From: Pseudomonas oleovorans subsp. oleovorans | GTDB lineage: Bacteria > Pseudomonadota > Gammaproteobacteria > Pseudomonadales > Pseudomonadaceae | DNA: 64,000 bases | Direction: 5' to 3' | NCBI RefSeq assembly: GCF_002197815.1 | Contig: NZ_NIUB01000005.1 | Location: 1-64,000 of the forward strand | Part shown: one piece after another, positions 19,498 to 31,960 of the stretch | Position numbering within the stretch: position 1 is the first letter of the stretch | Layout: every line of letters begins with the position of its first letter | Translations under genes and position numbers: made by a program | The notes under the pieces: generated by a model | Databases searched by the model: none | Told to the model about the DNA's origin: nothing | What the model saw: only the letters and a program-made list of their open reading frames with translations

Positions 19498-20214
19498 ATG
19501 CCCGCCACACCGTCCTCAAACCTGCCCTGGCCCGGCGCCAGGCCATTGCCGGATAGCTTCTTCGACCGCGACGCTCAGTTGCTCGCCCGTGAGCTGCTCG
19601 GCAAGGTGGTTCGCCATCGCGTCGCCGGGCTATGGCTGAGCGCCCGGATCATCGAGACCGAGGCCTATTACCTGGTCGACAAGGGCAGCCATGCGTCGCT
19701 CGGCTACACCGACAAACGCAAGGCGCTGTTCGCCGACGGCGGGCACATCTATATGTACTATGCGCGCGGTGGCGACTCGCTGAACTTCAGCGCCCAGGGG
19801 CCGGGCAACGCGGTGCTGATCAAGTCGGCGCATCCGTGGCTCGATGCCATCAGCGGCGCCGATGCTCTGGCCGCGATGCAACGCAACAACCCAGGCAGCC
19901 AGAGCCAGCCGCGCACCCCCGAGCGCTTGTGCGCCGGACAGACCCTGCTGTGCAAAGCGCTTGGTCTGAAAGTGCCGGATTGGGACGCACGCCGCTTCGA
20001 CCTGCAACGACTATTCGTCGAGGATGTCGGCGAACGACCGCACTCGATCATCCAGTGTGCGCGACTGGGCATTCCCAAGGGCCGTGACGAGGACCTGCCT
20101 TACCGCTTCGTCGACGCCCGCTATGCCCGCCACTGCACGCGCAACCCTTTGCGCCGTGGACAGGTCGAAGGACACGACTATCAACTACACACGCTGGAGC
20201 CTGCCCGACCATGA
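19498..20214 (+). CDS. DNA-3-methyladenine glycosylase (AAG/MPG family)
   Basis: A 238-residue base-excision enzyme of the alkyladenine glycosylase family, which removes alkylated purines. The catalytic glutamate lies in ARIIETEAYYLVDKGSHASLGYTDKR, and the family motifs GGHIYMYYARGGDSLNFSAQGPGNAVLIKSAHP and GPERLCAGQ-like TPERLCAGQTLLCKALG follow. Unlike AlkA or Tag, this is the mammalian-type fold. Its last four bases overlap the next gene (ATGA), so the two are translated together even though their roles look unrelated. Confidence 0.92.
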   Translation: MPATPSSNLPWPGARPLPDSFFDRDAQLLARELLGKVVRHRVAGLWLSARIIETEAYYLVDKGSHASLGYTDKRKALFADGGHIYMYYARGGDSLNFSAQGPGNAVLIKSAHPWLDAISGADALAAMQRNNPGSQSQPRTPERLCAGQTLLCKALGLKVPDWDARRFDLQRLFVEDVGERPHSIIQCARLGIPKGRDEDLPYRFVDARYARHCTRNPLRRGQVEGHDYQLHTLEPARP

Positions 20215-21527
20215 TGCAATGGTTCGACAGCATGACCACCTGGCTGCAAGGCAGCCCGCACTGGCTGGCATTGGCCATTTTCCTAGTCGCCTGTCTGGAG
20301 TGCCTGGCAGTGGCCGGCATCGTCATCCCTGGCACCGTGGTGCTGTTCACCCTCGCCGTGTTGGCCGGCAATGGCGCCCTGGAGCTGTGGCAGACACTGC
20401 TGCTCGCCTATACCGGCGGCCTGCTCGGTGATGCGATTTCCTACACCTTGGGTCGCCGTTTCCACCAGGGCATCCGGCGCCTGCCGGTGCTGCGTGACCA
20501 TCCCGAATGGTTGACCGGCGCAGAGAACTACTTCCAGCGCTATGGCGTGATCAGCCTGCTGGTCGGCCGCTACATCGGCCCGCTGCGGCCGATGCTGCCA
20601 TTGGTCGCCGGTATGCTGGACATGCCGGCCGTGCGCTTCGCCCTGGTCAGCCTGCTGGCTGCCGCCGGCTGGGCAGTGGCCTACATGCTGCCCGGCTGGG
20701 CCACCGGCGCCGCCTTGCGCCTGCCGCTACCAGAAGGTTTCTGGGGTGCGGCCGGCATCGTCAGCGCAGCCCTGGCGGTGATGTTGCTGCTGATCATGCA
20801 GGCCAGCCTGCGTGAACGGCGCTGGGCCGCCAGCCTGGCCGCACTGCTCGGCGCCATCGCCCTGGCCGCCATGCTAATCGGCTTCCCGTGGCTGGACAGC
20901 CTCGACCAGGGCCTGATGACGCTGGCGCAGGACGAGCGCAGCGCCGCCTTCGATCCCATCGCGGTGTTCATCACGCGCTTCGGAGACCTCCATATCCAGT
21001 TCGCCGCCGGCGTCCTGCTGGTGGCGCTGCTGTTCGCCGCACGTCGGTGGCAGGCCGGACTGTTCGTCGCTGGCGCCCTGCTGCTCGCCTCCACCGCAAC
21101 CACGGTGCTGAAGAACCTACTGGCCCGTTCACGCCCGGATGTCCTGCTGCAGCCGCTGGAAAGCTACAGCCTGCCGAGCGGACACAGCTCTGCGGCATTC
21201 GCCTTCTTCCTGGCCCTAGGTGTGCTGGCCGGTCGTGGCAGCGCGGCGCGCACACGCCTGACCTGGCTGCTGGTGGCGAGCCTGCCAGCCCTGACCATCG
21301 CCCTGTCGCGGGTGTACCTGGGGGTGCACTGGCCCAGCGACATCATCGCTGGTGCCCTGGTGGCGGCGACCAGTTGTGCGCTCAGCCTGGCCCTGATTCA
21401 GCGCGCAGCGCCGATGCAGCCGTTGCCGGCGAAGGTATGGTGGCTGGTGATTCCGGCCTGCGCAGCGCTGTTTGGCGCCATGGTCGCCTGGGAGCTGTCG
21501 GCGACTCAGTTACGCTACAGCTATTGA
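20211..21527 (+). CDS. DedA-family / PAP2 phosphatase fusion
   Basis: A 438-residue integral membrane protein with two families in one chain. Residues about 1-205 are a DedA/VTT domain (motifs ECLAVAGIVIPGTVVLF, GDAISYTLGRRF, GRYIGPLRPMLPLVAGM). Residues about 225-438 are a PAP2 lipid phosphatase with all three motifs: KNLLARSRP, LPSGHSSAAF and SRVYLGVHWPSDIIAG. DedA proteins act in polyprenyl-phosphate or phospholipid flipping, PAP2 enzymes dephosphorylate such lipids; a combined flip-and-dephosphorylate role for undecaprenyl (pyro)phosphate or phospholipids is an inference. Confidence 0.9.
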   Translation: MMQWFDSMTTWLQGSPHWLALAIFLVACLECLAVAGIVIPGTVVLFTLAVLAGNGALELWQTLLLAYTGGLLGDAISYTLGRRFHQGIRRLPVLRDHPEWLTGAENYFQRYGVISLLVGRYIGPLRPMLPLVAGMLDMPAVRFALVSLLAAAGWAVAYMLPGWATGAALRLPLPEGFWGAAGIVSAALAVMLLLIMQASLRERRWAASLAALLGAIALAAMLIGFPWLDSLDQGLMTLAQDERSAAFDPIAVFITRFGDLHIQFAAGVLLVALLFAARRWQAGLFVAGALLLASTATTVLKNLLARSRPDVLLQPLESYSLPSGHSSAAFAFFLALGVLAGRGSAARTRLTWLLVASLPALTIALSRVYLGVHWPSDIIAGALVAATSCALSLALIQRAAPMQPLPAKVWWLVIPACAALFGAMVAWELSATQLRYSY

Positions 21528-24136: not shown

Positions 24137-25861
24137 ATGAATTCCCTTGCCCTGCGCCTGCTGCCTGTTTGCTTGTCCCTGCTGATCGCCGGTTGCGACG
24201 AAGCGCGTCCGCTACTGCCGGCCAATGCCACCCTGCCCGACGGCGGCCAGTATCGTGGCGAGATCGTCGATGGCCTACTGCAAGGCCCCGGGCGTCTGGA
24301 CTACCGAAATGGCAGCTGGTTCGTCGGCCAGTTCAAGGACGGCATGCTGGAAGGTAGCGGTGAATGGCAAGGCCCCGGTGGCGAGCACTATCTGGGCGAG
24401 TTCCACGAAGGCATGTTCCACGGCCAGGGCACCCTCACCTACAGCGACGGTAGCCGCTACGAAGGCGGCTTCGAACGCAATCGCTTCAGCGGCGTCGGCC
24501 TGCTCGAACAGGGCGGCCAGCGTTACCAGGGCGAATTTCTCAACGACCGCTTCCACGGTCTGGGCAAACTGGAGATGGCCGACGGCAGCAGCTTCCAGGG
24601 CCAGTTCGTCAAGGGACAGCCAGAGGGCCAGGGCGTGCGCATCGACGCCTACGGCAACCAGTTCAGCGGCGTGTTCGCCCAGGGTCTGCTCAGCGGCCAG
24701 GGCAGCTACCAGAATGCCGATGGCGACAACTACAGCGGCGGTTTCAAGAACGACGAGTTTCATGGCAAAGGTCGCTACCAGAGCGCTGGCGGCGAGACCT
24801 GGGCCGGCGAATTCGTAGAAGGCGTGATGCAGGGCCCCGGCGAATATACCGATGGCGCCGGCACCCGCTACCTCGGCGAATTCGCCGACTGGCAGTACGA
24901 GGGCGAAGGCCTGCTCACCTTGCCCGACGGCAGCGCCTACCGCGGCCATTTCTCCGGCGGAGAATACAGTGGCGAGGGCACCCTGACTCTGGCCGACGGC
25001 AGCCGTCAGTCCGGCACCTGGCAAAGCGGCCGCCTGGTCCGTGACGCACAGGGTCAGGTGCTGCCCGACAGCCTCGAGCTGGGCCTGCTGCAACAAGGGC
25101 ACCTGCTCGATGAAGCCATCGCCGCGATTCCAGAATCGACACCGGCGCGCGAGCTGTATGTACTGACCCTGGCCGGCGACGGCAAGCAGAGCGTATTCAT
25201 GCGCGAAGCCGACTACGTCAGCCGGCTGATGCGCGAGCGCTTCGGCGCCCATGGCAGCATCAGCCTGATCAACCATCGCGACCACCTCGCCGACCGCCCA
25301 CTGGCCACCCGCGTGAATCTCACCCGCGTGGTGCAGGCACTGGCCGCACGCAGTGGCGAAGAAGACCTGATCTTCATCTATCTGACCAGCCACGGCTCGC
25401 GCCGTCACGAGCTCAATCTCGACCAGCCGCGCCTGCAACTGGCCGACCTGCCCGCCAGCGAGCTGGCTGCCCTGCTCGCTCCACTCAAGCAACGCAACAA
25501 GGTGGTGGTGATCTCCGCCTGCTATTCCGGCGGTTTCATCCCGCCGCTGAAAGACGAAAAGACCCTGGTGATGACCGCCGCACGTGCCGACCGGGTGTCC
25601 TTCGGTTGCAGTGAAGAGAACGACTTCACCTACTTCGGTCGCGCCCTGTTCGCCGAGGCGCTGGGCGAAACCGACAACCTCGAGCGGGCCTTCGAGCTGA
25701 CCAAGGAACGCGTCGCCGAGCGTGAGCAGAGCGACGGCTTCGAACCTTCCGAACCGCAGATCTGGGCGCCCCGCGGCGTACTCCAGCACTGGCGCGAACT
25801 ACGCCAAAGCCAGGCCGAGCGCGCGCTCGGTGCCGTGGCCAGCGGTCCGGCAAAGGACTAA
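24137..25861 (+). CDS. MORN-repeat lipoprotein with C13 (legumain-like) peptidase domain
   Basis: A 574-residue protein. Residues 1-20 are a lipoprotein signal (LSLLIAGC). About eleven MORN repeats follow (residues about 35-310), each of the form YxGxFxxGxxxGxG, for example YLGEFHEGMFHGQG and YSGGFKNDEFHGKG. Residues about 345-560 are a peptidase C13 domain: the catalytic histidine is H419 in YLTSHGSR and the nucleophile C462 in VISACYSGG, with FGCSEENDFTYFG near the end. MORN repeats bind lipids or proteins; C13 enzymes are caspase-fold cysteine proteases or transamidases. The start at 24137 is chosen for its signal peptide; the frame is open 24 codons upstream. Substrate and role are unknown. 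Confidence 0.88.
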   Translation: MNSLALRLLPVCLSLLIAGCDEARPLLPANATLPDGGQYRGEIVDGLLQGPGRLDYRNGSWFVGQFKDGMLEGSGEWQGPGGEHYLGEFHEGMFHGQGTLTYSDGSRYEGGFERNRFSGVGLLEQGGQRYQGEFLNDRFHGLGKLEMADGSSFQGQFVKGQPEGQGVRIDAYGNQFSGVFAQGLLSGQGSYQNADGDNYSGGFKNDEFHGKGRYQSAGGETWAGEFVEGVMQGPGEYTDGAGTRYLGEFADWQYEGEGLLTLPDGSAYRGHFSGGEYSGEGTLTLADGSRQSGTWQSGRLVRDAQGQVLPDSLELGLLQQGHLLDEAIAAIPESTPARELYVLTLAGDGKQSVFMREADYVSRLMRERFGAHGSISLINHRDHLADRPLATRVNLTRVVQALAARSGEEDLIFIYLTSHGSRRHELNLDQPRLQLADLPASELAALLAPLKQRNKVVVISACYSGGFIPPLKDEKTLVMTAARADRVSFGCSEENDFTYFGRALFAEALGETDNLERAFELTKERVAEREQSDGFEPSEPQIWAPRGVLQHWRELRQSQAERALGAVASGPAKD

Positions 25862-25891: not shown

Positions 25892-26533
25892 ATGTACCTG
25901 ACCCCACAGCACATCCTTCTCGCTGGCGCCACCGGGCTTACCGGTGAACACCTGCTCGACCGCCTGCTCAGCGAGCCGACGGTCGCCCGCGTGCTGGCGC
26001 CTACCCGCCGCCCCCTGGCCGCCCACCCGCACTTGGAAAACCCGGTGGGCGACTTGCAAGCGCTGCTGCCGCAATTGTCCGGCCAGGTCGATACCGCTTT
26101 CTGCTGCCTGGGCAGCACCATTAAGCAGGCCGGCTCGCAGGAAGCCTTCCGTGCCGTCGATCATGACCTGGTACTGGCCTTCGCTCGTCGCGCTCGCGAG
26201 CTGGGCGCACGGCATCTGGTGGTGATCAGCGCCCTCGGTGCCGACCCCGGCTCAAAGGTGTTCTACAACCGCATCAAAGGCGAGACCGAAGAGGCGCTGA
26301 AAGCCATGGACTGGCCGCAACTGACCATCGCCCGCCCGTCGCTGCTGCTCGGCGCGCGCCATGAGTTTCGTCTCGGCGAGCGCCTCGCCGCCCCGTTGCT
26401 GCGCTGGCTGCCGGGCAAGTACCGCGGCATCGACGCCTGCGTCCTGGCCCGCGCCCTGTGGCGCCTGGCCCTGGAAGAGGGAGACGGCGTGCGCGTGATA
26501 GAGTCTTCCGACCTGCGCCGGCTGGGGCGCTGA
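25892..26533 (+). CDS. NAD(P)H-binding Rossmann oxidoreductase (HTATIP2-like)
   Basis: A 213-residue atypical short-chain dehydrogenase/NAD(P)H-binding protein. It starts with [35 protein letters not shown], a glycine-rich dinucleotide loop, and has the typical middle [49 protein letters not shown] and [15 protein letters not shown]. These are the hallmarks of the YbjT/HTATIP2 group, whose substrates are mostly unknown. It starts a run of three closely spaced plus-strand genes. Confidence 0.88.
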
Positions 26534-27510: not shown

Positions 27511-28152
27511 TTAGCAGCTTACCGCGCCGGAACGCAGCGCCAGCGGATCGACCAGCCCGGCGGCGATGGCCATGCCTACCAGTTCCGGCAGTGTCTCGGC
27601 CTGCATGCGCTTCATCACCCGCGAGCGATACAGGTCAACGGTCTTAACGCTGATATCGAGCTGCTCGGCCACTTCGCGATTGGTGTAGCCGCGCACCAAC
27701 GGCAGCAGCACGTCGCGCTCACGCGGGGTGAGCTGATCGAGCCGTGCCTGCACCTCAGCCAGACGCGCATCGCGCCGCGGGCGGGCCGGACGGCGCTCCA
27801 GCGCCTGCTGCACACTGTCGAGCAGCAGTTGCTCGTTGTAGGGCTTCTCGATGAAATCCACCGCGCCAGCCTTGAACGCGCGCACGACGATGGGCACGTC
27901 GGCGTGACCGCTGACGAAAATTATCGGTAGGTCGATACTCCGTGCGCGCATCTCCTCCTGCACATTGAGCCCGCCCATGCCCGGCATACGCACATCGAGC
28001 AGCACGCAGGCATTGGCGCTGGGGTCGCAGGCGTCGAGAAAGGCACGACCGCTGGTGAACGGCACGCCCTTGAGGCCTACCGACTCCAGCAGCCAGAGGG
28101 TCGAGTCGAGCATGCCCTGGTCGTCATCGACCACGTAAACCAGTTGTTGCAT
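27511..28152 (-). CDS. FixJ/NarL-type response regulator
   Basis: A 213-residue regulator. The receiver domain occupies residues 1-120 with phosphoacceptor D53 in VLLDVRMPGMGG, conserved DD at 9-10 and lysine in FIEKPYNE. A LuxR-type helix-turn-helix follows (LTPRERDVLLPLVRGYTNREVAEQLDISVKTVDLYRSRVMKRM). FixJ, TodT and StyR-type regulators share this layout. The sensor kinase lies upstream on the same strand with a 136-bp REP-containing gap. The likely target is the divergent acyl-CoA ligase promoter, as inferred from position. Confidence 0.93.
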   Translation of the reverse strand: MQQLVYVVDDDQGMLDSTLWLLESVGLKGVPFTSGRAFLDACDPSANACVLLDVRMPGMGGLNVQEEMRARSIDLPIIFVSGHADVPIVVRAFKAGAVDFIEKPYNEQLLLDSVQQALERRPARPRRDARLAEVQARLDQLTPRERDVLLPLVRGYTNREVAEQLDISVKTVDLYRSRVMKRMQAETLPELVGMAIAAGLVDPLALRSGAVSC

Positions 28153-28190
28153 CCCTGTGCTGCTCCTCTTGTTGTTATCAGTGACTTGGC

Positions 28191-28280
28191 CGCTCGTAGG
28201 GCGGACTCAGGAGCGCCAGCGAACAGTCCGCCGATTCGCGTCGCGCCACGAGTCCTGATCGCCGGCAAGCCGGCTCCTAC
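28191..28280. repeat. REP-type palindromes between kinase and regulator
   Basis: Two dispersed-repeat units. GTAGGGCGGACT...AGTCCGCC (28196-28232) belongs to the GTAGGGCGG palindromes, and 28257-28280 is a REP unit identical over 24 bp to 8952-8975. They separate the histidine kinase gene from its regulator gene. Confidence 0.65.
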
Positions 28281-28288
28281 AGATCAAC

Positions 28289-30199
28289 CTAATCCTCTCT
28301 GCCCAGCGGCAAGCGGCACTCCAGGCACAGCCCGCCGCCCTCGGCCGGCAATGCCTCCAGCGACCCACCAAAACCTTCGACGATGCTGCGGCTCATGGAC
28401 AGGCCAAGCCCCAGGCCGTCCGCCTTGCTGGTGTAAAAGGGCGTGAACAGTTTGCCCAGTTGCTCCTCGCTGACACCCGGCCCCTGGTCGATCACCCGGA
28501 TCGCCAGGCTGCCGTCGCGCTCGCCGGCCTCCAGACGAATCTGCGATGCGCTGCCCGGATGCCGGTCGCGGTTGGCCTCGATGGCGTTGCGCAGCAGATT
28601 CAGCAGCACCTGTTCGAGCAGTACGCGGTCGGCGAATACCGGCGGCAGATTGTCCGGCAAGGCGTCGCTGACCGCTACCTGTGCCGCGCCCGCCTCCCAG
28701 TTGCACAGGCGCACGGCCTCGCGCGCCACCTCGGCCAGATTGAGCGCCTGCATACGCCGCTGGCCCTTGCGCAGGAATGCGCGCAGGCGCCTGATCACTG
28801 CCGAGGCGTGGTTGGCGTGTTCGGTGATGCGCGCCAGGCCTTGAGCCACCTTGTCCACAACGGCAGGATCGCCGCCGACGCCCTGCAGGTAGCGCTGGCT
28901 GGCGCTGGCGTAGTTGACCACCGCCGCCAGCGGCTGGTTGATCTCGTGGGCGATGCCCGAGGCCAGCTCGCCCAGGGTGATCAGCCGCGTGGTGTGCGCC
29001 AGCTCGTCCTCCAGGCGGCGCTTGTTGTCCTCGGCCTGGATGCGCGCGGTGATGTCGCGCGAGACGCTGACCACCTCGACCACCGCGCCGGTGTAGGTTT
29101 CGCGAATGGCGCGACTGGCGGTCTCGAACCACAGGTAGTGCCCGTCGCGGTGGCGGATGCGGTAGGTCATAGTGTGATAACCGTCCTGCTCCAGCGCCTC
29201 GCGCGCTTGCTTGGCCTGCTGCAGTTGGTCCTGCGGATGCAGCAAGCCGTCCACCGCCATGCCGCGCAACTCTTCCGGCCAGTAGCCGAGCAACGTCCAG
29301 CTTGCAGGCGTGGCGTCGAGGAACACGCCGTCCGGGGTATGCCGGGAAATCAGATCGGTGGTGTTCTCGGTGATCAGCCGGTACAGCCGCCGTGCCCGCG
29401 CCGCTTCGCGCTGCTCGCGAATCTCCTGGGTCGCTTCGCGACAGCGTGCCAACACCCGCTGCTCTGCCACATCAGGAATGAAGCTCCAGATCAGGATGCG
29501 CTCGCCGTCCTGAGCCTCCACCGCCTCGATGGCGCGCGACTGCTGCAAGCAGGCGCGCACCAGCGGCAGATGATTGACCGGCAGCAGTTCACCGACCCGG
29601 GCCAGCGGACGCTCGCCGAGCAGTTCTTGCAAAGCCTGGTTGAACTCCAGCGGCCGTGCGCGCGCATCGAGCAGCAACGCCGGCTGTGGGTCGGCCGATA
29701 GCAACGGCGCACTGCGACTCATACCACCAGCCAAACCGACAAGTTGCGCCAGCAACTCGCGCAGCCAGGGCAACCACTCCAGGCCGGCATCTTCGTCCAC
29801 CTGCAGCAACAACAGACCGGCACCGCCCTCCTCCAGACTCAGCGCCAGCGCCTGACCGTGATGAATCGCAGCGCGGCGCAGTCGCCCGGCCAACCAGCAG
29901 GGCAGTTGACGCACTACTTCCAGGCTAAGGCAGGGCTGCGTCGTCAGCGCCTCGAACAGGGCCTGATCGCTGGCGGCCAGCGGATCGCCCTGGCCCGGCG
30001 GCAGGCGCGGGCCACCGTCGTCCTGGGCATAGGTGCGGCTGGCCGGCTGCCAGGTCAGGTACCAGGCCTGGCGCACCTGTGGGCAGCCCAGCATGGCACG
30101 GCGCAAAGCCGCCGCCCGCTCGTTGAGGGATGGCGCTTCGCGCTGGATACGCAGCCAGGCCTGCAGCGGCACGGCCGCCTGATCACTCGAAAGATTCAT
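28289..30199 (-). CDS. PAS-domain sensor histidine kinase (FixL/TodS-like)
   Basis: A 636-residue kinase with no clear membrane segments, so probably cytoplasmic. Residues about 1-165 are unrecognised; about 168-255 look like a degenerate PAS domain; 271-385 are a PAS-PAC unit (RLITENTTDLISRHTPDGVFLDATPAS to VVSVSRDITARIQAE). The HisKA phosphoacceptor is H418 in ELASGIAHEINQPLAAVV; the ATPase shows the N box (NLLRNAIEANR), G1 (VIDQGPGVSEEQLGKLF) and G2 (DGLGLGLSMSRSIVEGFGG). This is the FixL-like group that pairs with FixJ-type regulators. It is divergent from the acyl-CoA ligase gene at 30341, suggesting it senses a related compound. Confidence 0.92.
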   Translation of the reverse strand: MNLSSDQAAVPLQAWLRIQREAPSLNERAAALRRAMLGCPQVRQAWYLTWQPASRTYAQDDGGPRLPPGQGDPLAASDQALFEALTTQPCLSLEVVRQLPCWLAGRLRRAAIHHGQALALSLEEGGAGLLLLQVDEDAGLEWLPWLRELLAQLVGLAGGMSRSAPLLSADPQPALLLDARARPLEFNQALQELLGERPLARVGELLPVNHLPLVRACLQQSRAIEAVEAQDGERILIWSFIPDVAEQRVLARCREATQEIREQREAARARRLYRLITENTTDLISRHTPDGVFLDATPASWTLLGYWPEELRGMAVDGLLHPQDQLQQAKQAREALEQDGYHTMTYRIRHRDGHYLWFETASRAIRETYTGAVVEVVSVSRDITARIQAEDNKRRLEDELAHTTRLITLGELASGIAHEINQPLAAVVNYASASQRYLQGVGGDPAVVDKVAQGLARITEHANHASAVIRRLRAFLRKGQRRMQALNLAEVAREAVRLCNWEAGAAQVAVSDALPDNLPPVFADRVLLEQVLLNLLRNAIEANRDRHPGSASQIRLEAGERDGSLAIRVIDQGPGVSEEQLGKLFTPFYTSKADGLGLGLSMSRSIVEGFGGSLEALPAEGGGLCLECRLPLGRED

Positions 30200-30340: not shown

Positions 30341-31960
30341 ATGTCGATCTACGAGCAGGGCCTCGGCCGCGCCGCCGTCAACCACGTTGCCCTCAGCCCC
30401 CTGAGCTTCATCGAGCGTACCGCGGCGGTCTACCCGCACTACCCGGCCGTGGTGCATGGCTCGATTCGTCGCAACTGGGCCGAGACCTACGCGCGCTGTC
30501 GGCGCCTGGCCTCGGCGTTGGCCGGTCGTGGCATCGGCCAGGGCGACACGGTGGCGGTGATGCTGCCGAACATTCCGGCGATGCTCGAAGTGCATTTCGG
30601 CGTGCCGATGATCGGCGCGGTGCTCAACACCCTCAACGTGCGCCTGGATGCCGAAGCCATCTCTTTCATGCTGCAGCACGGCGAAGCCAAGGTGGTGATC
30701 GCCGACCGCGAGTTCTTCGACGTGATTCACGCCGCCATCGGCATGCTCGACCATCCGCCGCTGGTGATCGACGTCGACGACCCCGAGTACGGCGAAGGCC
30801 AGGCGGTCAGCGATCTGGACTACGAGGCCTTCCTCGCCGAAGGCGATCCCGAATTCGCCTGGCAGTGGCCGACGGACGAGTGGCAGGCCATCAGCCTCAA
30901 CTACACCTCCGGCACCACCGGCAACCCCAAGGGCGTGGTCTATCACCACCGCGGCGCCTTCCTCAACGCCCTGGGCAACCAGATGACCTGGGCCATGGGC
31001 AACCACCCGGTCTACCTATGGACCCTGCCGATGTTCCACTGCAACGGCTGGTGCTACCCCTGGACGATCACCGCCCTGGCTGGCGTACACGTATTCCTGC
31101 GCCGCGTCGACCCGGCGAAGATCCTCACTCTGATCCGCGACGAGCAGGTCACTCACCTGTGCGGCGCGCCCATCGTGCTCAATGCGCTGGTAAACATGCC
31201 GGCCGAGGCCAAGGCGGCCATCGATCACCCGGTCAAGGCCATGGTCGCCGGCGCTGCGCCACCGGCCAAGGTGATCGGCGCAGTGGAGGAAATGGGCATC
31301 GCCGTGACCCACGTCTACGGCCTTACCGAGGTCTACGGCCCGGTGACCCTGTGCGCCTGGCACGCCGAATGGGACGAACTGCCGCTGGAAGAACGCGCCA
31401 CCATCAAGGCGCGCCAGGGCGTGCGCTACCCGACCCTGGAAGGGGTGATGGTCGCCGACCCGAAAACCCTCGAGCCGGTGCCGCGTGACGGCCAGACCAT
31501 CGGCGAGATCTTCATGCGCGGCAACACGGTGATGAAGGGCTACCTGAAGAACCCCAGCGCCACCGCCGAGGCCTTCGAGGGCGGCTGGTTCCACACCGGC
31601 GACCTGGGCGTGTGCCACGCCGATGGCTACGTGGAAATCCGCGACCGCCTCAAGGACATCATCATCTCCGGCGGCGAGAACATCTCCACCATCGAGATCG
31701 AAGGCGTGCTTTATCGCCACCCGGCGGTGCTGGAGGCGGCCGTGGTCGCCCGCCCGGACGAGAAATGGGGCGAGACGCCCTGCGCCTTCATCACCCTGAA
31801 GACCGGCCAGCAGGCCAGCGACAGCGAGATCATGAGCTTCTGCCGCGAGCACCTGGCGGGCTTCAAGGTACCCAAGACCGTGGTCTTCACCCAGCTGCCC
31901 AAGACCAGCACCGGCAAGATCCAGAAGTTCGTCCTGCGCGATATGGCCAAGGCGCTGTAG
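30341..31960 (+). CDS. Acyl-CoA synthetase (AMP-binding, DmdB/AlkK-like)
   Basis: A 539-residue ANL-family ligase that activates a carboxylic acid with ATP and CoA. The P-loop YTSGTTGNPKGVVYHHRGA is at about residue 188, motif VYGLTEVYGP follows, then GWFHTGDLGVCHADGYVEIRDRLKDIIISGGENISTIEIE and the C-terminal catalytic lysine in KTSTGKIQKFVLR. The whole sequence resembles medium-chain fatty acid ligase AlkK and methylmercaptopropionate-CoA ligase DmdB. Paired with an acyl-CoA dehydrogenase and permease downstream, it probably begins breakdown of a short- or medium-chain acid; the exact acid is not known. Confidence 0.92.
   Translation: MSIYEQGLGRAAVNHVALSPLSFIERTAAVYPHYPAVVHGSIRRNWAETYARCRRLASALAGRGIGQGDTVAVMLPNIPAMLEVHFGVPMIGAVLNTLNVRLDAEAISFMLQHGEAKVVIADREFFDVIHAAIGMLDHPPLVIDVDDPEYGEGQAVSDLDYEAFLAEGDPEFAWQWPTDEWQAISLNYTSGTTGNPKGVVYHHRGAFLNALGNQMTWAMGNHPVYLWTLPMFHCNGWCYPWTITALAGVHVFLRRVDPAKILTLIRDEQVTHLCGAPIVLNALVNMPAEAKAAIDHPVKAMVAGAAPPAKVIGAVEEMGIAVTHVYGLTEVYGPVTLCAWHAEWDELPLEERATIKARQGVRYPTLEGVMVADPKTLEPVPRDGQTIGEIFMRGNTVMKGYLKNPSATAEAFEGGWFHTGDLGVCHADGYVEIRDRLKDIIISGGENISTIEIEGVLYRHPAVLEAAVVARPDEKWGETPCAFITLKTGQQASDSEIMSFCREHLAGFKVPKTVVFTQLPKTSTGKIQKFVLRDMAKAL

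Follow-up and report, generated by a model that had tools for sequence, protein, structure and literature searches.

A predicted MORN-repeat lipoprotein with a C13 peptidase domain, present throughout Pseudomonas, as a candidate envelope peptidase

Introduction

Legumain-type enzymes, which belong to peptidase family C13, are well studied in animals and plants. We describe here a gene in which a domain of this kind follows a lipoprotein signal peptide and a rod of MORN repeats. It lies in the first 64,000 nucleotides of contig NZ_NIUB01000005.1 (forward strand; assembly GCF_002197815.1) of Pseudomonas oleovorans subsp. oleovorans, and the whole of this stretch is called the window below. The product is a genus-wide envelope protein, unstudied as far as our searches show; it belongs to a known kind of peptidase, with a MORN mount and an altered S1 site. 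The reading that we prefer, at a probability of roughly 0.55, is that of a housekeeping envelope peptidase of the legumain fold on a lipidated MORN rod, the loss of whose processing would weaken the envelope.

The specificity of legumain for Asn has been tied to a zwitterionic S1 site, in which E187 is named (PMC9098846; PMC numbers refer throughout to excerpts of the papers concerned). MORN repeats have been re-evaluated as a protein-protein or dimerisation module: MORN1 proteins dimerise, and TbMORN1 showed no membrane or vesicle binding in the excerpted results, yet interacted with individual phospholipids (PMC7725318). TbMORN1 and apicomplexan MORN1 are, like part of the window protein, rods of repeats of about 23 residues, but they are eukaryotic, and TbMORN1 is described as made solely of MORN repeats, with no enzyme domain (PMC7725318). 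In bacteria, the gene abrp of Acinetobacter baumannii encodes a peptidase C13 family protein, and all sources agree that its loss raises membrane permeability or, conversely, that the gene lowers it (PMC8003822, PMC11615727, PMC10203620, PMC5346588, PMC8768575, PMC10218405).

No function is established for the Pseudomonas protein in the literature that we met, which agrees with an earlier note made from the sequence alone. Open-licence PubMed Central yielded no paper joining peptidase C13, MORN, lipoprotein and Pseudomonas, and a search there for peptidase C13 with Pseudomonas listed no title naming the Pseudomonas gene.

Results

Catalytic domain

The frame is uninterrupted from ATG to TAA over 574 codons, and its product matches the Pfam families Peptidase_C13 (PF01650: 133.5 bits, cut-off 22.8, E = 1.2e-38) and MORN (PF02493: 126.8 bits, cut-off 22.5, E = 6.5e-38). 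Conservation was assessed in two alignments. A2 has 56 rows, namely the window protein and 55 of 80 named loci; A3 holds 35 diverse C13 domains and excludes weak or motif-less matches (L052-L063), near-copies (L144-L156) and phylum-search matches without a fetched locus. His419 and Cys462, aligned with legumain H148 and C189, are invariant in both (56/56 and 35/35). The intact C13 dyad announced in the earlier note is real, and the gene limits and residue positions given there are correct. This conserved dyad and the presence of the gene throughout the genus (see below) show that the frame is not a chance one.

Further residues invariant in A3 include F354, E357, D410, G420, G465, S488, G490 and C491. 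The last three belong to an SFGC motif whose Phe (F489) is found in 33 of the 35 domains. The second invariant cysteine, C491 (25607-25609), is aligned with the Cys of legumain SYAC. These invariants were taken from A2 and A3 rather than from an earlier motif pattern (Ser/Thr-Ala-Cys) that kept 20 of 31 loci, with 10 giving no match and one start missing; Ser is common at position 461.

Residues were mapped onto legumain through an alignment of the A3 profile, in the chain numbering of 5lua. The acidic S1 residue that characterises the legumain subfamily, E187, corresponds to S460 here, with Ser in 34 of the 35 A3 domains and Asn in the other. Legumain D231, which we take to be part of the S1 pocket, corresponds to R502, and this position is variable in A3 (R 19, E 7, D 3, K 2, N 2, Q 1, H 1) as well as in A2 (D 31, R 22, K 1, N 1, E 1), so some close relatives have Asp. 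R44 and H45 of legumain are presumably the basic S1 residues, and the sequence alignment starts past them. As E187 is replaced by Ser almost throughout A3, and D231 by Arg in the window protein, the cleavage at Asn/Asp that the earlier note associated with the family cannot be assumed. On sequence grounds, the window protein counts as a C13 peptidase, but not demonstrably as one that acts at Asn/Asp. It shares with legumain the predicted fold, the His-Cys dyad and the SYAC-like motif, and differs from it by these two replacements, by an identity of only about 20%, by its bacterial origin and by its fusion to MORN repeats. PIGK, the catalytic subunit of glycosylphosphatidylinositol (GPI) transamidase, has the same fold but keeps an acidic residue (D204) at the position of legumain E187 (PMC9098846), which is Ser in the window protein.

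AlphaFold2 was run on 56 sequences. The full-length model has a mean predicted local distance difference test score (pLDDT) of 90.7, so the individual domains are confidently predicted, and a predicted template modelling score (pTM) of 0.57. The model of the C13 part on its own reaches a pTM of 0.91, with a weak loop right after the SFGC motif (pLDDT below 50 for model residues 187-190). Aligned with VIA-align, this part matched metacaspase 4 (6w8r; Z 19.1, root-mean-square deviation (rmsd) 3.5, 211 residues aligned), legumain (7fql; Z 19.0, rmsd 3.0, 203 aligned), PIGK (8imx_K; Z 17.6, rmsd 3.8, 213 aligned) and caspase-7 (Z 16.3, rmsd 3.0, 189 aligned). Metacaspase and legumain are thus tied as best matches of the modelled fold, and plant peptide ligases were also among the matches. 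The top match in Foldseek was legumain 4awb_A (E = 2.0e-09), but with a template modelling score of 0.56 and an rmsd of 6.2. When the A3 profile was compared with the PDB, legumain came first (E = 6.8e-10), followed by metacaspase 4 (1.3e-05), caspase-1 (0.0041) and GPI transamidase (0.005).

Lipobox and MORN rod

The lipobox reported in the earlier note is present (LLIAGC), and its Cys20 is kept in all 56 rows of A2. A scan that reports only starts preceding such a motif, judged by eye and by regular expression, covered 31 loci, including that of the window, and gave a lipobox for 28 (the window's included), the other 3 not being read. By this motif, the window protein is a predicted bacterial lipoprotein. 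The two residues after Cys20 are D-E (residues 21-22, 24197-24202), the commonest in A2 being Gly (52/56, directly after Cys) and Asp (46/56); D-E after the lipidated Cys could alter membrane sorting.

The "about eleven" MORN repeats of the earlier note proved to be eleven full repeats, which by hand start at residues 39, 62, 85, 108, 130, 153, 176, 199, 222, 245 and 268, and a truncated twelfth at 291. They are modelled by AlphaFold2 as a beta rod, with pLDDT mostly above 90, that aligns with TbMORN1 (6t4r; Z 21.0, rmsd 2.7, 209 residues aligned). The MORN domain is net acidic, with 20 Lys and Arg against 38 Asp and Glu. Taken with the results on TbMORN1, this charge speaks more for a rod that acts as a spacer or in docking than for a sensor of lipids, by extrapolation from eukaryotic proteins.

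Interchangeable anchors

The same catalytic domain is preceded by different N-terminal parts in other Pseudomonadota. On the basis of MORN pattern counts and a hydropathy scan, the 35 proteins of A3 were classified as carrying MORN repeats (14), four or five hydrophobic helices (13) or a short N-terminal part with no or one helix (8). Thus, 21 of these chosen relatives have the enzyme without a MORN array (0-2 pattern matches). In all 11 proteins with five helices, the loops predicted to be cytoplasmic are the richer in summed Lys and Arg, so that the helix-anchored forms (11 of the 13 helix-type proteins) are predicted to have their N-terminus inside and their enzyme in the periplasm. The body of a lipoprotein lies outside the inner membrane, and the window enzyme would therefore face the same side.

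In a tree of A3, the N-terminal labels cluster, yet 5 changes are needed in all. The MORN label needs 3 changes (bootstrap 3-5), but no more than 1 is imposed by branches with strong support, so that the MORN form may have arisen once; for the transmembrane form and the short form, the minimum imposed is 2 changes each. Since a MORN rod, a set of transmembrane helices or a short anchor can precede the domain, we infer one periplasmic catalytic unit with replaceable mounts, the MORN rod being one of them.

Distribution and selection

A search with the C13 domain alone gave a match in all 199 genomes searched in the genus, with a second match read in two of them (G022, G735). With the full protein, matches were obtained in 36 of 36 same-genus genomes, own genome included, and in 5 of 21 others, where they reached the C13 part in two only (G036, G052). 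Among named organisms, P. indoloxydans and P. chengduensis are the closest, at 96% identity. At the level of the class, 30 of 274 genomes matched at E <= 0.001, 24 of them over the cut-off, and 18 (own included) had a match below 1e-20, with exactly one such gene each. At the level of the phylum, 62 of 398 genomes matched, 59 over the cut-off. Among 14 well-known control genomes, Caulobacter vibrioides was the sole match. The combination of lipobox, MORN repeats and C13 dyad had been called unusual in the earlier note; the domain set is real, but the catalytic domain occurs throughout the genus and the P. aeruginosa record already annotates the gene as "peptidase C13".

The ratios of nonsynonymous to synonymous substitution rates, computed for 7 of 55 possible pairs, ranged from 0.05 to 0.52 for the MORN part and from 0.06 to 0.29 for the C13 part. 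The C13 value was lower than the MORN value in five of these seven pairs, equal in one and higher in one, and both domains are under purifying selection in the pairs computed.

Two minor observations concern the records and the reading frame. A 424,881-base P. aeruginosa "plasmid" (CP109682.1, L034) that carries the gene plus mpl, ubiX and eat is possibly a mislabelled piece of chromosome. A 504-residue frame on the opposite strand (24275-25789) overlaps the gene, its simplest reading being a by-product of high G+C.

Functional leads from relatives

The A. baumannii protein L033 (CP040048) has a C13 domain 38% identical to that of the window protein, the SACYSG and SFGC motifs and a catalytic side predicted to be periplasmic, but no MORN array and five predicted transmembrane helices instead. 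Deletion of abrp slows growth (PMC10203620, PMC5346588), and growth is faster with the gene (PMC8003822). A peptidase C13 gene of A. baumannii was also a predictor of early polymyxin exposure (0.74 early, -0.28 late; PMC4872528). One matching place was found in each of the five A. baumannii records listed; among the matches listed, three A. baumannii records labelled "plasmid", 3.6-4.1 Mb in size, resemble chromosomes.

In P. aeruginosa, we take PA4016 to be the orthologue from the gene order of PAO1; no result ties this locus tag to MORN or C13. In a table of envelope proteomics, PA4016 shows ratios of 0.19 and <0.05 in two strains with overexpressed efflux pumps (PMC7835679). A role in virulence was rejected on the nematode data given below.

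Proposed role and alternative readings

In the reading that we prefer, the protein would be exported, lipidated on Cys20 and anchored in a membrane, most of it lying in the periplasm. The rigid MORN beta-rod would carry the cysteine peptidase away from the membrane, and would probably pair the protein with itself or dock it on a partner. His419 and Cys462 would then cleave one or a few envelope proteins, and envelope integrity would be weaker when this processing is lost. As the catalytic domain is kept throughout the genus while relatives change the anchor, the question is directly testable. If the link with A. baumannii is true, the family is relevant to how permeable the envelope is in two Gram-negative groups of importance.

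Several points weigh against this reading. In the literature that we met, no activity is demonstrated for any bacterial C13 member, nor did we meet one whose substrate is known, no search having been aimed at that question. The equation of L033 with Abrp is our own, and the drug effect of abrp is disputed: its deletion reduces susceptibility according to two sources (PMC5346588, PMC11615727), whereas it reduces resistance according to another (PMC10218405), the wild type being less susceptible in a fourth (PMC10203620). The sole phenotype reported for PA4016, slower killing of nematodes, was not reproduced with a second allele (PMC3406104, which contains neither the word MORN nor the word C13). 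The mutual arrangement of the domains is only loosely predicted (pTM 0.57), and the topology comes from a crude hydropathy and charge count in which two of the 13 helix-type proteins, with four helices called, are ambiguous. One genome of the same family, G218, had no PF01650 match in the class and phylum searches. Finally, 21 loci of distant relatives (L033 and 20 others) show no widely recurrent neighbour of the enzyme. The C13 gene itself clusters in 17 of them (those of L174, L181, L185 and L191 were not called or clustered by our crude script), the next-widest cluster spans 3 loci, and the others join just two loci each, for the most part in two pairs of close relatives. These loci therefore suggest neither a partner nor a substrate.

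The protein might instead be a transamidase or ligase, like PIGK or the plant asparaginyl ligases, that cleaves a protein of the envelope and links the end so formed to an amine carrier. This is unlikely in our view, despite the fold matches to PIGK and plant peptide ligases and a membrane anchor, indicated by motif, that recalls the action of PIGK at the membrane. The ligase route of legumain uses D147 (PMC9098846), which corresponds to S418 here and to Ser in 32 of the 35 A3 domains, although PIGK itself has Gly there; the distant relatives also offer no recurrent neighbour. We infer peptidase rather than ligase activity.

The earlier note suggested a protease that senses membrane lipids, in which the MORN repeats would bind a lipid and switch the C13 domain on. 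We hold this to be quite improbable. The repeats have been re-evaluated as a dimerisation module, and the excerpted results on TbMORN1 argue against membrane or vesicle binding (PMC7725318), so lipid sensing is unsupported; moreover, the MORN domain is acidic, related enzymes do without MORN arrays, and the protein is already lipid-anchored.

A more ambitious proposal, which we find very doubtful, is that of a genus-wide Pseudomonas envelope transpeptidase. Its C13 domain, on a rod of fixed reach, would cut a non-Asn site and re-attach proteins to a lipid or wall amine, as the bacterial equivalent of GPI transamidase, or of sortase, whose anchors are swapped between lineages. Still less probably, catalysis is incidental, the protein being mainly a structural rod or docking platform with the C13 domain kept for binding. 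MORN proteins are indeed known dimerisation modules (PMC7725318), and the literature met records no activity, but the dyad is kept without exception whatever the N-terminal form, and it is the MORN part, not the enzyme, that relatives replace. A caspase-like effector that acts in cell death or in defence against phages is the least probable reading of all and was rejected as the main one. It draws on weak matches to the PADLOC caspase PDLC02987 (20.3 bits, E = 6.7e-05, positions 37-140 of 453) and to the NCBIfam EACC1-associated caspase NF047832 (32.9 bits). The latter, however, is far under the curated cut-off of 140 bits, and, unlike patchy defence islands, the C13 domain is present in all 199 genus genomes and the gene has the same neighbourhood in 81 loci.

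Gene neighbourhood

The features of the gene are collected in Table 1. Its neighbourhood was compared in 81 named loci of Pseudomonas type (the 80 above and the P. aeruginosa record), some of them short. A LON-domain gene, lrgB and a downstream oxidoreductase gene are found in all 81, each on one strand throughout, with maoC in 78 and dedA/PAP2 in 69. The end of maoC lies 75-405 bases upstream of the gene. The oxidoreductase gene is on the same strand in all 81 loci, at a gap of 27-32 bases in 65 and of 27-276 bases overall, starts being extrapolated. Its product also matches HIM1 (30.3 bits, cut-off 28.7), and it is a possible functional partner of the MORN-C13 protein. A search for promoters and terminators was uninformative, with no sigma-70-like site and a single terminator-like match where shuffling gives 2.0 on average.

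Table 1. Positions in the window of the MORN-C13 gene, its parts and the gene downstream
Feature	Position	Strand	Evidence
Whole gene, MORN-C13 lipoprotein, 574 residues	24137..25861	+	Open reading frame ATG to TAA, Pfam, full-length relatives
Predicted lipoprotein signal peptide, lipobox LLIAGC, lipidated Cys = residue 20	24137..24196	+	Motif, Cys20 conservation
MORN rod, residues 39-304, 11 repeats of 22-23 residues and a truncated twelfth	24251..25048	+	PF02493, AlphaFold2, VIA-align
Linker including helix 312-329, residues 305-338	25049..25150	+	AlphaFold2 model
Peptidase_C13 catalytic domain, residues 339-545	25151..25771	+	PF01650, C13-only model, fold matches
Catalytic His419	25391..25393	+	35/35 (A3), 56/56 (A2); aligned with legumain H148
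Catalytic Cys462, in SACYSGG	25520..25522	+	35/35, 56/56; aligned with legumain C189
SFGC motif, residues 488-491, with C491	25598..25609	+	Alignment A3; aligned with legumain SYAC
Downstream NAD(P)-binding oxidoreductase, possibly co-transcribed	25892..26533	+	PF13460, 31.5 bits

Farther upstream in the window, a gene at 20211-21527 (+) encodes a DedA/VTT domain fused to a PAP2 phosphatase and adjoins the gene of the LON substrate-binding domain and lrgB. On the other side, a LuxR-type response regulator and a PAS sensor kinase (27511-30199, -) are followed by an acyl-CoA synthetase (30341-31960). The downstream region differs in the P. aeruginosa record, where a YceK/YidQ lipoprotein gene, ubiX and mpl come after the oxidoreductase gene instead.
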